DNA of 48,288 nucleotides from assembly GCA_903854475.1 (NCBI GenBank), contig CAINWP010000145.1:1-48288 (forward strand), given 5' to 3'. The notes beneath the pieces are model-generated. The model made no database searches. It saw only the letters and a list, made by a program, of their open reading frames with translations, and was not told where the DNA came from. A program made the position numbers and the translations under genes. Below are positions 9,718-41,500 of the stretch, in pieces. Numbering within the stretch: position 1 is the stretch's first letter; every line of letters begins with the position of its first letter. This DNA is from an uncultured Verrucomicrobiota bacterium. GTDB taxonomy: Bacteria > Verrucomicrobiota > Verrucomicrobiia > Limisphaerales > UBA9464.

Positions 9718-10281
9718 GTGAGTGATTCCGCAGCCGTTAGTTCTCCGGCTTCCCCTCGTTTGCCCGTTGTGACGGGCTCCGGGGCGGCGACGGTGATCCT
9801 CCTGCGCAATCGTCAGAAAGACCGCCCGTTGCGGGTGAGAGCCCTTCGCCAGATCACCTTGGACCTCCTGGAGGCCATGGGCTTAGAGGCTGAGGTGGGA
9901 TTTCATTTTGTCTCCCCGAGGGAGATGGCCCGGGTGAACTGGCGATTTCTCCGGCACGAGGGATCGACCGATGTCATTACCTTCGACCATGGCTCGACGC
10001 CCGAACGTGTGTATGGCGAGTGCTTTATTTCGGTCGCCGACGCCGTGGATCAGGCTCAAGCCTTCCGAACGACCTGGACCCAAGAAGTGGTCCGATATGT
10101 CATCCACGGCCTCTTGCACCTTCGCGGATACGATGACTTGGAGCCGGTATTGCGGCGTTCCATGAAGCGGGAGGAGAACCGCTGGGTCCGCTGGGTAGAC
10201 GGGCGTCACCACGATCTGGAGAGGCCACTGGCCACCCCGATTCGATCGGCCTCCCGACCTGGCGCGACGACTGCCCCATGA
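9718..10281 (+). CDS. ybeY: endoribonuclease YbeY
   Basis: 187-residue YbeY, a metal-dependent ribonuclease for 16S rRNA 3'-end maturation and ribosome quality control. Family marks are STDVITFDHG (about 82-91), GECFISVADA and the metal motif VIHGLLHLRGYDD near 124-136. The third zinc ligand is Asp here rather than the His of the E. coli motif HGxLHLxGYDH. The N-terminus is about 30 residues longer than usual. The start is GTG at 9718; no ATG lies between it and the fold. The stop overlaps the recO start as ATGA, implying translational coupling. Confidence 0.9.
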   Translation: MSDSAAVSSPASPRLPVVTGSGAATVILLRNRQKDRPLRVRALRQITLDLLEAMGLEAEVGFHFVSPREMARVNWRFLRHEGSTDVITFDHGSTPERVYGECFISVADAVDQAQAFRTTWTQEVVRYVIHGLLHLRGYDDLEPVLRRSMKREENRWVRWVDGRHHDLERPLATPIRSASRPGATTAP

Positions 10282-10910
10282 TCGCCCAACGATCCGAAGG
10301 CATCGTCATCCGCCTGCGCCCCCTCGGCGACACCAGCCTAATCGTCCACTGGTTGACTCCTGAACACGGTCGTCTGGCCACCGTGGCCAAGGGAGCCCGC
10401 GGGCCGAAGTCGGTCTTTCGCGGTAAGCTCGATTGGTGCTTCGAGAGCGAGTTCTCCTTCCGCCGTAACCCCAAGGGTAATCTCCATTCGTTGAGTGAAG
10501 TCGTTGTCCGGAACACTCATGGCTCCCTGCGACGGGAGCTCGTCTCCCTAGAGTTGATCGCTCATGCGGTGGCCACGCTGGAGCAGGTCACGGAAACGGA
10601 AACCCCCCAACCTGAGGCGCATCGGCTCTTCCTTGAGTTCCTGGCATTCTTAGAGATCCAGGGTCCCATGGCCCGGGCCCAGTTCGCATGGGATTTGCGC
10701 TTTTTGGCCATTCAAGGTCTTCAGCCCGATCCCGAAGGGTTGACCCCGGAAGCCGGTGCCTTGATGGAAACGTTGTTGGAGGCGAACTGGAGCGAACTGG
10801 CGGCACTCGAAGTCCCTCAGGAGACCGTTCGGAGTCTTCGTCAGTTCCTGCACGGATTCTGGATTCATCACTTCGGCCGCTCGCCCGGCAATCGCAATGC
10901 CCGCCGCTGA
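10278..10910 (+). CDS. recO: DNA repair protein RecO
   Basis: 210-residue RecO, which loads RecA at gaps together with RecR by displacing SSB and annealing strands. The N-terminal OB fold is seen in SEGIVIRLRPLGDTSLIVHW (6-25) and GRLATVAKGARGPKS. The helical C-domain follows, with RLFLEFLAFLE and FLHGFWIHHFGR at the end. The four-cysteine zinc motif of many RecO proteins is absent, as in enterobacteria, and the protein is shorter than the usual 230-250. It starts inside the ybeY stop (ATGA at 10278), so the two are translationally coupled. Confidence 0.88.
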   Translation: MIAQRSEGIVIRLRPLGDTSLIVHWLTPEHGRLATVAKGARGPKSVFRGKLDWCFESEFSFRRNPKGNLHSLSEVVVRNTHGSLRRELVSLELIAHAVATLEQVTETETPQPEAHRLFLEFLAFLEIQGPMARAQFAWDLRFLAIQGLQPDPEGLTPEAGALMETLLEANWSELAALEVPQETVRSLRQFLHGFWIHHFGRSPGNRNARR

Positions 10911-10973: not shown

Positions 10974-11011
10974 AAAAAGAAAACCCGGAGGGCGGTGGAA
11001 CGACCTCCGGG
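10974..11011 (-). terminator. intrinsic terminator, leftward
   Basis: On the minus strand CCCGGAGG (11011-11004), a 12-base loop, CCTCCGGG (10991-10984), then TTTTCTTTTT (10983-10974). This is a textbook Rho-independent terminator, but for leftward transcription, whereas recO and dnaE both read right. Confidence 0.75.
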
Positions 11012-11229
11012 CCAGAATCTTCAGAAGCACCGGTTCAAGCCTGTTTGCCAGAACCGTTCGGGGATGGGGGTGGGACGGGTGCCGGAACCATGATGGCCCC
11101 GGCGGCGGGGAGTGATCCGAGTCCTGCTTGCGCGGGTTTTGAGATCCTTGTTTCCACGTCTTCAACTAAGCTTAAGCCTTGCCATCGTGGTTTAGTGAGT
11201 GCCGCCACTCACCAAAACGCCCAAGGACT
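10974..11229 (-). ncRNA. candidate structured non-coding RNA
   Basis: The 509-base recO-dnaE gap has no convincing gene but holds a complete leftward unit: promoter (11264-11235), structured body and intrinsic terminator (11011-10974). The first hairpin (11216-11191) has an 11-pair stem on the minus strand, with arms TTTGGTGAGTG and CACTCACTAAA around GCGG. One pair is G-U on this strand and A-C on the plus strand, which favours leftward transcription. Further on are CCACG/CGTGG, CCCC/GGGG and CGGTTC/GAACCG pairings. It matches none of tmRNA, RNase P, SRP or tRNA by the motifs I could check. The length would be about 255 bases. It is a candidate only; the function is unknown. Confidence 0.4.
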
Positions 11230-11234
11230 GCCTA

Positions 11235-11264
11235 ATTATTGTCGGAATGCCCGTTTTTGACCAA
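11235..11264 (-). promoter_or_regulatory. leftward promoter of the ncRNA candidate
   Basis: TTGGTC (11264-11259), 18 bases, then AATAAT (11240-11235; five of six -10 matches). The predicted start is near 11229. Its -35 overlaps the -35 of the rightward dnaE promoter in the near-palindrome TTTGACCAAA. Confidence 0.4.
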
Positions 11265-25248: not shown

Positions 25249-26379
25249 ATGCAACTGCAACCCATCGCCCGAACTTTTGCCCTTCTGTTAGCGGCAATCC
25301 CGATCCTCTCGAGTTTACTTTGCGCCCAGCAGCCCATTGTTCTGTGGGATTTTAACCAGACCAACGACCTCCTGCGTGCCACCTCCGGTACGGCGACACT
25401 GGTGGTCCTCGGCGGCCTCCGCACGGCTCCGGCCTCTGGCCTTGGTTCGAGCGATCCATCCACCAATGCCGACTTTGCTCTGCAACTCACCGGTTTCCCC
25501 AAGCAGGGAACAGGAGCCCAGAGCGCGGGTCTGGAGATCTCCACTTCGACGGTCGGTTTTCAGTCCGTTGTCCTGAAGTTTGATGTCCGAGCGACCAGCA
25601 CGGCCAGTCGCCGCCTCCAAGTGCTGTATTCTACCGATGGGCAAACACTGAAGGCCGGACCGGCTTTTACTTTGAACGGAGGTACCGCCTTCACCAATGG
25701 CCTCACAGTTGATTTTTCCACCATTCCTAACGTCGCTAATCAGCCGGAGTTGAGGGTTCGACTGGTTTCGGATTGGGACGGGGACTCCTATGTTGGTGCC
25801 GCTGGCAATTACAGCACTGTGGGAACCTGGCGGATCGATCACCTGCGCCTGATGGGTGTTTCTTTCGGGGTTCAACCCGTGGATCCCAACCCTGAAAACC
25901 CTGCGCTGCTCACGATCACTAGCCAACCGCTATCCCTGCAGGTGCCCGACGGAGGTGGTGCTCTGTTTCGGGTCGCGGCGAATGGGGCCGGTCCGCTAAA
26001 TTATCAATGGTGTTTCAATGGACAACCGTTGTTCGGGGCCACCCGCCAAGAGTTGAGGATTGCCCAGGTTTCTCGAGATCATCTTGGACTTTATACGGTC
26101 CGCGTGAGTCATGCCGAAGGTTCGGTATCCAGTGAAGAAGCCTCGTTGAGCTTCTTGACCGATCCGACCATTCGACCTGTCCGGGTTGAGGCCGTGCCCG
26201 GACCTCAGGGTTCCCTCCGATTGGCTTGGCCCACTCGGCCGGGGAGTACCTATTCGGTCCTTCGGTCGGTGGGCTGGGATGGTTTGACCACGGTCCTAGC
26301 CGCGGGAGTTACCGGCGGTTCCCTCACCGAGACCCCCCCGGCCGGAGAACAATTTTTCTACTGGGTCCAGATTCAGTAG
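25249..26379 (+). CDS. exported protein with Ig-like domain
   Basis: 376 residues, secreted. The signal peptide (QLQPIARTFALLLAAIPILS, cut after CAQ near 25) leads into a beta-rich region (about 26-210; PIVLWDFNQTNDLL, LKFDVRATSTASRRL, FRIDH-like WRIDHLRLMG). Next comes an immunoglobulin-like domain (about 223-305: PLSLQVPDGGGALFRVAANG, YQWCFNGQPL, HLGLYTVRVSH), then a short C-terminal beta module (RLAWPTRPGSTYSVLRSV). Such architecture is common in PVC secreted proteins. There is no catalytic motif and no PEP-CTERM or other anchor. The ATG at 25249 is chosen for the signal peptide. Function unknown. Confidence 0.85.
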   Translation: MQLQPIARTFALLLAAIPILSSLLCAQQPIVLWDFNQTNDLLRATSGTATLVVLGGLRTAPASGLGSSDPSTNADFALQLTGFPKQGTGAQSAGLEISTSTVGFQSVVLKFDVRATSTASRRLQVLYSTDGQTLKAGPAFTLNGGTAFTNGLTVDFSTIPNVANQPELRVRLVSDWDGDSYVGAAGNYSTVGTWRIDHLRLMGVSFGVQPVDPNPENPALLTITSQPLSLQVPDGGGALFRVAANGAGPLNYQWCFNGQPLFGATRQELRIAQVSRDHLGLYTVRVSHAEGSVSSEEASLSFLTDPTIRPVRVEAVPGPQGSLRLAWPTRPGSTYSVLRSVGWDGLTTVLAAGVTGGSLTETPPAGEQFFYWVQIQ

Positions 26380-38500: not shown

Positions 38501-41500
38501 CCAACTGCGGATCGGGATGGAGGGTCCTCAGCAGGCGGAACACCGATTCCACGGTATCGTAGGTTTCCCACTGGCTGTTTCGGGCCTCCGATAACGTCCG
38601 GGTTTGTCCGCGGACTAGCCCTTGGGCCTCCCGGACTTCCGTCGAGCCGCCGGGTGTTTCCAAAACGCGGCTGAGGCGCTGGTCTCGAAGGGCGAGGGGC
38701 TTGGCGGTGCGGTCGAGGGTTAGCCACGCGGCATCGGTCGCGTCTTCTACGTACACCTGGATGAGTGATCCGTCCCCGAGGGCGGTCGCTGGCAACCGGA
38801 TCTTGCCAGCGGCATCGGGGATAAGGTTGAAAAAGGCCAGAGAAGCCGCGGCGAGGAAGTCCCAGTTTGAGTCGAGAGAGGTTCGGGCCGAGGCCCGCTC
38901 ACTGCGCGACAGCATGTCTGCCATTTGCGCCATGCCTGCCACGCTGCCCAGGGAGGGGAGCGGTGCGGTCCCATCGGCGACCGGCAGCGCTACCGAGTCG
39001 GTGGAGCGCTTGTCCCAGGGGTTGAGCAGCAGGCCGGGCCGAGGCAACCGATTGCCCGGGTACTTCGTCGCGTAGCGGCGGTCCAAGATGTAGCGGTACT
39101 CGTCGCCGATTTCCCGACCTCCGGAATACAAGTTGGGCAAAAAGTCGGGAGTCTTGGATCCGACGCCCCATCGGGTGAAGCCGCCCAGATTGGAGAACAG
39201 GCTCTTGGCTGGCACGAACTGGTTGGCCATCACGTGGACACGGGTGAACGGGTTCCAGTTTTGCAGCGTGATTTCGGCTCCGCCCTCCGGGGTGAGGGTG
39301 GCCGATGCCAAATGAACCGGCTCCCGGGGACGCAGTTCCAAGGATCGGTTCTTGCCCACCAACCAACCGGCCACCGGCACGCCGTCGCCGATGCGGAGGG
39401 TGATCACCGACTCCTCGGGATCGCGCAGGCGCAGCGAGTAGTCGCCCGCCGTTAGTCCAGCGATCTCCAGCAGGTTGCCGGAGGACCGCACCGCCGTGGT
39501 TCGATCGGTGGCGAAGGTGCCGCCACGCAGTTCGAGCAGCGACCAGGCGTCGGGCCGTCCTTGCGGGGACCACGGGAGGCGCACGGTCTCGCCGACTCGG
39601 GCGTGGAGTTCTCGCGGACGCGTCTGGGCGGAGGTCTCCAAGGGCCACGAGCGCCGGAGGTCCGGGGCCGGGGTCGCCTCCAGTCGGGTGGTTTCCGCAA
39701 GCGCACCCAAATCGATGCGGCCTTGGGCGTCGGTCCGCAGTGAAATATCGACGGTGTTGTTAAAGCCTCGGCGATGGAAGGTCATCGGGAGGGCATGGTC
39801 TGGCACGGGCTCACCATTTTTGCCGAGGACTTCGATCCAATAGCGGTCGCTGCTCCGTCGGAGGAAGGCATCCTTGATGTTGGCGGTCCCTTCGATGCCG
39901 TTGATTTCCCAGCTCCGGGAGGCACTCAACTCGCGTTTCTCGCCGCCGGCCAAGGGATCGACACGTCCCTGCACGGTGGCCGTGACTCGGCCGAGACGTT
40001 GAGGCACCCGGAAGACGTGGGTCAGCACCCGGGCTGCGGAGAGCGTGGTGAGCGGCACTTCCGTGCTGGAGCTCACGCCATCGAGGGTGGTGGTGGTCAG
40101 CGTCAGTCGGGCGTCGGCGAGCAGTTCTGGAGTGGCAGCCTGATTTCCGATGCGCAAGGAGGACCGCATCGCGAGCACGGCTTCGTTTCCGGCGACACAC
40201 TGCTCGGGATCCAGATGGAACTGGGCCTCCAGTTCATAGGTCTCGGCGTGGTGTTCAAATTCGGCCAAGGACGCTAAACGTCCGTCGGCATCGGACAAGA
40301 CGATGGGGCGTCGGCCCGGGGTGGCGGTGAAGGGGATTTGGATGCGACCGTCCTTCGGATCGGCCTCCCACTTGCGACCGTCCAGCCAGGCGACGGCATT
40401 GGTGACGACGCGGGCGTTCTCGTCGAGGACTAGAATTAAATCGCCGCCCGGCCCGTTGGATTGCAGCAGCGAAAAACCACCGCGTCGGAGGAGGGCCCGT
40501 GAGGAGCGTCCGCCGCCAATGATCTCGACGATCCAAGCCCCCCGTTTCCCTTGGAGTTCGGGAAAGCGAAACGCCCGTGTGTACCGCAGGAAGGGCGAAG
40601 ACTCTCCGTCGTGGCGTTGCTCGGCGTTAGCCACCCACCCATCGAGAGGGAGGTCGGTGTTCAGGGGGCGTTTCTGCGACTGAAAGTAGCCGAGGGTATT
40701 GATCTCGAAGAGCCGGACCATTATTTGAGGCGTGTTTTTGAGAGTCACGCTCACTGAGACTTCCTGGTCCAACGGAATGCTTGGCGCATGGGTGGCCGGA
40801 AATTCGATGTCCACCCGATCCTTGAGCGCCTGATACGCCGCCGGTGAGAGCAAGGAGGTCCAGCGTTCGGTTTCGCCGGCCCCCTGGGTGATCTTGGCTT
40901 CGGCAAAGAGAGGTTTAACCCACGTGTCGCGGAGCCATTCGGTCCACGGCTCCCACTGGGCCTCGGTCGCGGCGAACTGCCGGAAGAAGTCACGGACCAA
41001 CGGCTCGTCCGTTCCGATGGGAGGCAGTCCCAGGCCAGATTCTGGAAAGGCGGCATTTAAGTCGGCCGCAAAGCGGTCTGCCTGAACCGATTCGAGGTAC
41101 CTCGGGTTCATGTAGGCCGCCGGTCGGGGCAGCTTCAAGTATTCGATGAAACGGGCTCGGTCATAGACACCGCGGGTCCGGTCGAGTTGCAGGCGGGCAT
41201 ACAGCACGTGGGCCTTGAGGGAATTGAACGCCGCCGGCAGTCCTCGCACATAACTTCCCACGCGCTCCAGCCAAGCTTCCCGCACGGCCGGATCCGTTTG
41301 GGAATGGGCGTCGGCCCCGGGTGCTAGTTTGGTAATCCGCGTCATCACAAACGCCGACTGGTGGGCCAGCGCAGGGATCTCTTTTTCGAGCGCATCGAGC
41401 TGCGCGGGCAGCAGCGCCCGATGAATGGGCAAGGAACCAAAGCCCCGGCTCTCCGGAGTCTTCAATTCAGTGATGATCCGCGGTAGGAGGCCGGGGGCGT

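Follow-up and report, generated by a model that had tools for sequence, protein, structure and literature searches.

The recO–dnaE gap of the window (the whole stretch of DNA analysed, 48,288 nucleotides) raises the question of whether it holds a gene of its own, and if so, what this gene makes and under which control. Pfam confirmed yajQ (DUF520), ybeY, recO, and dnaE in the window. The gap spans ~500 bases and both of its neighbours read right on the plus strand, as stated in the preliminary description, which had proposed an independent leftward RNA between them.

10278–10910, plus strand: recO (Pfam)
from about 11420, plus strand: dnaE (Pfam)

Judged from the comparison of sequences, the gap does contain a genuine gene that reads left and encodes a structured RNA; it lies on the minus strand, opposite to both neighbours.

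Extent and structure of the RNA

The leftward intrinsic terminator, already recognized in the preliminary description, consists of the hairpin CCCGGAGG...CCTCCGGG followed by TTTTCTTTTT; it ends at 10974 on the minus strand and is conserved in relatives. A DNA search of 59 genomes and the resulting alignments showed minus-strand conservation of the terminator and the preceding ~180 nt, both in most genomes of the same genus and in other genera of the family. The homology begins at 11157, so that the comparative data give a length of ~182 nt instead of the ~255 bases first estimated. The RNA and its parts are as follows (changes counted in an 88-sequence alignment).

10976–11157, minus strand: conserved structured RNA, 182 nt, 5′ end GUGGAAAC; covariance model R2 gives 166 bits (E 6e-44) in the window
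11070–11157, minus strand: helix 1, closing pairs (11157–11154 with 11073–11070); 4 of 4 pairs with two-sided changes, first pair GC in 39 and AU in 29
11112–11148, minus strand: helix 2 (11148–11142 with 11118–11112); 6 of 6 pairs with two-sided changes, 73% of cells paired
11081–11103, minus strand: hairpin 3, GCCGGGGCC-AUCAU-GGUUCCGGC; 10 of 10 pairs with two-sided changes, 88% of cells paired
11057–11069, minus strand: C-rich linker after GUCCCAC, unpaired in the consensus structure, candidate mRNA-pairing region
11031–11056, minus strand: hairpin 4, loop AAACAGG (the family mostly has GAACAGG); two-sided changes at 9 of 9 pairs
10974–11015, minus strand: intrinsic terminator (helix 5), loop containing UUCCAC, tail UUUUCUUUUU; paired in 95% of cells, two-sided changes at 10 of 12 pairs (MFE fold)

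The folding energy was ordinary on both strands (z −1.24 on the minus and −1.04 on the plus strand), and energy alone is therefore no evidence of an RNA. The evidence came from covariation. A MAFFT alignment of 17 copies gave a consensus of 41 pairs, 18 of which had changed on both sides; 63 cells showed such changes, whereas shuffling gave 20 and sliding the alignment no more than 17. With 88 copies, 39 of the 41 pairs showed two-sided changes (726 cells vs. 250 shuffled) and all five helices covaried strongly; that alignment was fitted to the model, and the plain MAFFT alignment is the cleaner test of covariation. The helices thus covary beyond both the shuffled and the slid controls. This conservation and covariation bear out an independent leftward unit ending in the terminator. 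The conserved helices differ from those of the preliminary description: the covariance analysis that it had called for supported structure in other helices, whereas its stem at 11191–11216 was confined to the window and one relative, L002.

Sigma-54 box and predicted activator site

Upstream of the RNA, three elements could be placed on the minus strand.

11169–11185, minus strand: sigma-54 (−24/−12) promoter ATGGCAAGGCTTAAGCT, box read from 11185 to 11169, GG/GC spacing exact
11247–11264, minus strand: predicted activator (enhancer-binding protein) site TTGGTCAAAAACGGGCAT, a palindrome containing the “−35” of the preliminary description
11189–11218, minus strand: 11-pair hairpin, upstream of the promoter and outside the conserved RNA, only in the window and L002

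The box TTGGCA-N8-GC was invariant in the aligned relatives and reads ATGGCA-N8-GC in the window, where it also deviates from the consensus TGGCA...TGCW by an A in place of the T before GC (AAGC). A score of at least 11 of 15 was reached in 83 of 87 homologues, compared with 9% of control stretches. The covariance models began at the 5′ end of the RNA and never included the promoter, and the box is therefore independent evidence. It lies 12–14 nt before the RNA 5′ end in most copies; the relatives have GUGGAA at the 5′ end 12–14 nt after the GC of the box, and the predicted start at 11157 on the minus strand falls 12 nt after the −12 GC in the window.

Sigma-54 promoters have an activator site 80–150 nt before the start. 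When the 150 bases preceding the box were searched for motifs (57 sequences from 37 families), an order-wide consensus cTGgnCAAATTTGncCAg emerged, commonest near −80 from the box, with a log-likelihood of 91 vs. 25–32 in four shuffled sets. The predicted site in the window lies ~80 nt upstream of the box, roughly at −105 from the predicted start. The gene rpoN was found in 267 of the 293 genomes of the order, including that of the window (G000:C36), which also encodes seven full activator genes with PF00158 (AAA+ class). Exact spacing, a host with rpoN and AAA+ activators, and an upstream activator site were thus found together. As a profile to tell which genomes have the RNA, the presence of rpoN was discarded because it is near-universal in the order.

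The 11-pair hairpin that the preliminary description placed in the RNA (11216–11191) does exist in the sequence but is not part of the conserved RNA; it lies upstream of the 5′ end and, given a start near 11157, would not be transcribed. It sits (11218–11189) between the activator site and the promoter, and in L002 one of its pairs is kept by a compensatory change on both sides and another is broken. It might serve as a bend or a protein site.

Probable link to the nitrogen regulon

The activator motif was learnt only from the RNA promoters and then scored at P-II genes. Of the regions upstream of P-II genes, 17 had a good sigma-54 box, and 13 of these carried a site scoring at least 11, compared with 1.75% of shuffled stretches; regions from the same genus are not independent of each other, and those from other families are. 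The P-II (glnK-type) genes with the site belonged to the window's genus and several other families, and in the window's own genome the P-II gene (C313) has an upstream site with a score of 13.6. A copy with one mismatch, and a second with three mismatches beside it, was found in the same genome on C19 (G000:C19 107–245, L284); the one-mismatch copy stands ~50 nt upstream of a perfect sigma-54 box, which is followed by a gene of the acetamidase/formamidase family (PF03069). This gene is likely a second member of the regulon of the RNA.

Because the RNA and P-II promoters have this site in common, the RNA is assigned to the regulon under which P-II falls. Such a regulon is typically that of NtrC, and the same predicted site before core nitrogen genes is what an NtrC regulon would show. 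Among the seven activators, C40:7037 was the closest to NtrC (TIGR01818, 492 bits, below the NCBIfam cutoff of 559) and is the candidate activator, whose binding to the predicted site we infer. The motif was not found upstream of the seven activator genes themselves. Two further matches in the window, at 40251–40268 (score 17.6) and 25342–25359 (14.7), had no nearby sigma-54 box under the strict pattern and are probably due to chance.

Distribution and gene neighbourhood

The first covariance model, built from the 17-copy MAFFT alignment, detected the RNA in 35 of the 50 genomes of the family and 42 of the 293 genomes of the order. The second detected it in 134 of the 293, mostly as a single copy and across 69 genera, with E < 1e-6 in well over 100 of them. 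Some genera of the window's family (g2 and g5) gave no match. In a sample of 388 genomes drawn from the phylum, no match outside the order was better than E 3e-5, and these weak matches were regarded as terminator-only false positives; there was no convincing match in 80 unrelated loci either. The weak matches L194, L195, and L282 (family f42) lacked the sigma-54 box and were rejected in the same way.

No Rfam family reached its gathering score, whether in the window or among 15 loci carrying distant homologues, in agreement with the earlier statement of no known match among the RNA families that could be checked by motif. At a permissive threshold only chance matches appeared in the stretch. 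The best of three weak ones, anti-hemB (RF02837), matched mainly through the terminator and was dismissed as an identity (14.9 bits vs. a gathering score of 49.5). Searches of open papers for a comparable RNA in Verrucomicrobia returned nothing relevant.

The location between recO and dnaE is that of the window's genus. In 38 loci (e.g., L160, L164, L187, L226–L228, and L259) the RNA gene is preceded by an hscB-like J-domain gene, always on the same strand, and iscA was present in 35 loci, usually further upstream. An example of the hscB-like protein matched DnaJ (E 1.7e-5), just short of the Pfam cutoff, and an example of the IscA protein matched Fe-S_biosyn (Pfam). The position next to these Fe-S cluster assembly genes is probably the ancestral place of the RNA gene. 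Two further observations concern the neighbourhood. A conserved, secreted-looking protein of ~230 residues (NCxxVVLxAFxSNxxVKAVIFMPGATDEL), with no Pfam match, was encoded at 15 loci (L242, L243, L191, L236, and others, and L251, where it lies between hscB and the RNA). Three genomes of the genus (G004:C29, G013:C2, and G014:C217) carry a P-II gene on the contig of the RNA, no more than ~7–11 kb away from it.

Leaderless open reading frame

An open reading frame starts at the predicted 5′ end itself.

11035–11157, minus strand: leaderless ORF, 40 codons, GTG at the predicted 5′ end, TGA at 11037–11035

In the 98 sequences examined, ATG or GTG occurred 10–20 nt after the −12 GC, and the frame from this start codon had a median of ~39 codons, ending just before the terminator. 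With one sequence for each of 36 families, 9 in-frame stops were counted within 30 codons vs. 30.6 expected (36 and 20 in the other frames), and the in-frame stops were concentrated at codons 36–42 (19 vs. 4 and 5). Start codon and open frame are thus conserved beyond chance, although conserved RNA motifs could account for part of the missing stops, a possibility that the shuffles do not remove.

No purifying selection was found on the peptide: the within-genus pN/pS was ~0.6–1.1 in most sets, and the variable sites were spread evenly over the codon positions, with no third-position bias in most sets. Frame shifts are tolerated in the second half (L162 and L168 vs. L161; L179-type sequences), and several copies of one family (L244, L252, and L257) have no start codon. 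The preliminary description had named a conserved protein frame as an outcome that would contradict it; a leaderless frame is indeed kept open in most lineages, but its amino-acid sequence is little constrained. It seems that translation matters in most lineages and the peptide sequence hardly does.

Proposed function and alternative explanations

The locus probably encodes a structured regulatory RNA that is induced in nitrogen limitation via an NtrC-type activator and sigma-54 and then acts in trans. The sequence comparison shows the boundaries of the RNA, its covarying structure, the sigma-54 box, the activator site, and the sharing of this site with P-II and formamidase promoters; transcription itself, NtrC as the activator, the action in trans, and its targets are what we infer from these. 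A phosphorylated NtrC-type activator would bind the palindrome at 11264–11247 and loop to the sigma-54 RNA polymerase at 11185–11169. The transcript would start near 11157, run left for ~182 nt, and end at the terminator at 10974. It would fold into a closed multi-helix domain and a separate hairpin, and the exposed C-rich linker and loops may pair with mRNAs in trans, lowering the translation of genes unwanted in nitrogen shortage. Taken alone, the action in trans by the C-rich linker is about evenly balanced between right and wrong. A search of the own genome for near-complements of the linker region (20 nt, at most 3 mismatches) returned only the locus itself and no target candidate.

The preliminary description assumed a sigma-70 RNA of ~255 nt starting after TTGGTC-18-AATAAT. 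Both hexamers exist on the minus strand (TTGGTC at 11264–11259, an 18-nt gap, AATAAT at 11240–11235), and a sigma-70 scan gave a weak match with TGGTCA-17-AATAAT (9 of 12 positions; 0.3 expected in shuffles of the stretch). However, AATAAT occurs only in the window and the 96%-identical L002 and, like the hairpin that follows, is not conserved in the genus; TTGGTC is half of the activator palindrome, and the homology begins only at 11157. The sigma-54 box takes its place, and this origin of the RNA is barely credible. The RNA could otherwise be a byproduct of the isc operon, i.e., a conserved 3′ end or attenuator of iscA-hscB instead of a unit of its own, as the same-strand hscB-like and iscA genes might suggest. 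The promoter and activator site are retained at the isc loci, though, and in the window's genus everything is conserved between recO and dnaE on the strand opposite to both neighbours, which makes a byproduct very unlikely.

The open frame raises other explanations. The transcript could serve chiefly as a leaderless mRNA from which nitrogen-limited cells make a microprotein of ~40 residues, the fold of the transcript doing no more than tuning translation or stability. An ATG or GTG at the predicted 5′ end of nearly all copies with a sigma-54 box, the end of the frame just before the terminator, and the loss of stops mainly from that frame would fit. The pN/pS values and the even spread of variable sites, the tolerated frame shifts, the copies without a start codon, and helices that covary throughout the RNA argue against it. 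The open frame is real, but the substitution pattern disfavours a microprotein as the main product, and we regard this explanation as unlikely. The kept-open frame nevertheless suggests that translation matters too, which counts against a purely RNA-based function. A refinement compatible with the nitrogen-induced regulatory RNA is a dual function, in which a base-pairing regulator doubles as the message for a leaderless peptide that is functional or regulatory and whose start codon is held in helix 1. The evidence for structure and that for the open frame both apply to it, and helix 1, in which the RNA 5′ end and with it the first bases of the start codon are paired, covaries; the peptide sequence bears no clear mark of selection, and a dual function is possible but somewhat doubtful. 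Rather improbable is a nitrogen-induced RNA whose working part is translation itself and not the peptide, and which senses translation or amino-acid supply. Ribosomes entering the frame would then remodel the RNA, its start codon being part of helix 1, and thereby set its regulatory activity.

As a regulatory RNA induced in nitrogen limitation, it would add a candidate post-transcriptional branch to nitrogen control in an order where rpoN is near-universal. The activator site common with glnK makes the regulon directly testable. The family is order-wide, has its own predicted sigma-54 control, and is absent from Rfam and the open papers searched; its leaderless frame is unusual in being kept open while the peptide drifts.

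Comparison with known systems

SgrS/SgrT is a dual-function sRNA, in which a regulatory RNA contains a small frame. By comparison, the frame described here is leaderless and begins at the 5′ end, and its peptide is not visibly conserved. Another counterpart is NrsZ, for which the review cited below covers the study of Wenner et al. (2014). As the review presents it, NrsZ of Pseudomonas aeruginosa is an sRNA of at least 226 nt that is induced in nitrogen limitation by NtrB/C with RpoN, is intergenic with its own promoter, is processed, and acts on rhlA (PMC9308961). The RNA of the window resembles it in role, being intergenic with its own promoter and under predicted nitrogen-limitation control. 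It differs from NrsZ in its gene neighbourhood, shows no Rfam cross-match, and has a leaderless frame, none being described in the review's account of NrsZ (PMC9308961). The conserved motif ACAGGCAG reported for NrsZ (PMC9308961) resembles the AACAGGC loop of the window's family, likely by chance; the likeness is limited to the string ACAGGC, and the resemblance proposed between the two RNAs is one of role rather than of sequence. GlnZ of Enterobacteriaceae is likewise an NtrC-controlled RNA and acts by base pairing in nitrogen limitation; however, it is processed from the 3′ UTR of glnA (PMC9731577), whereas the RNA in the recO–dnaE gap has a predicted sigma-54 promoter of its own.
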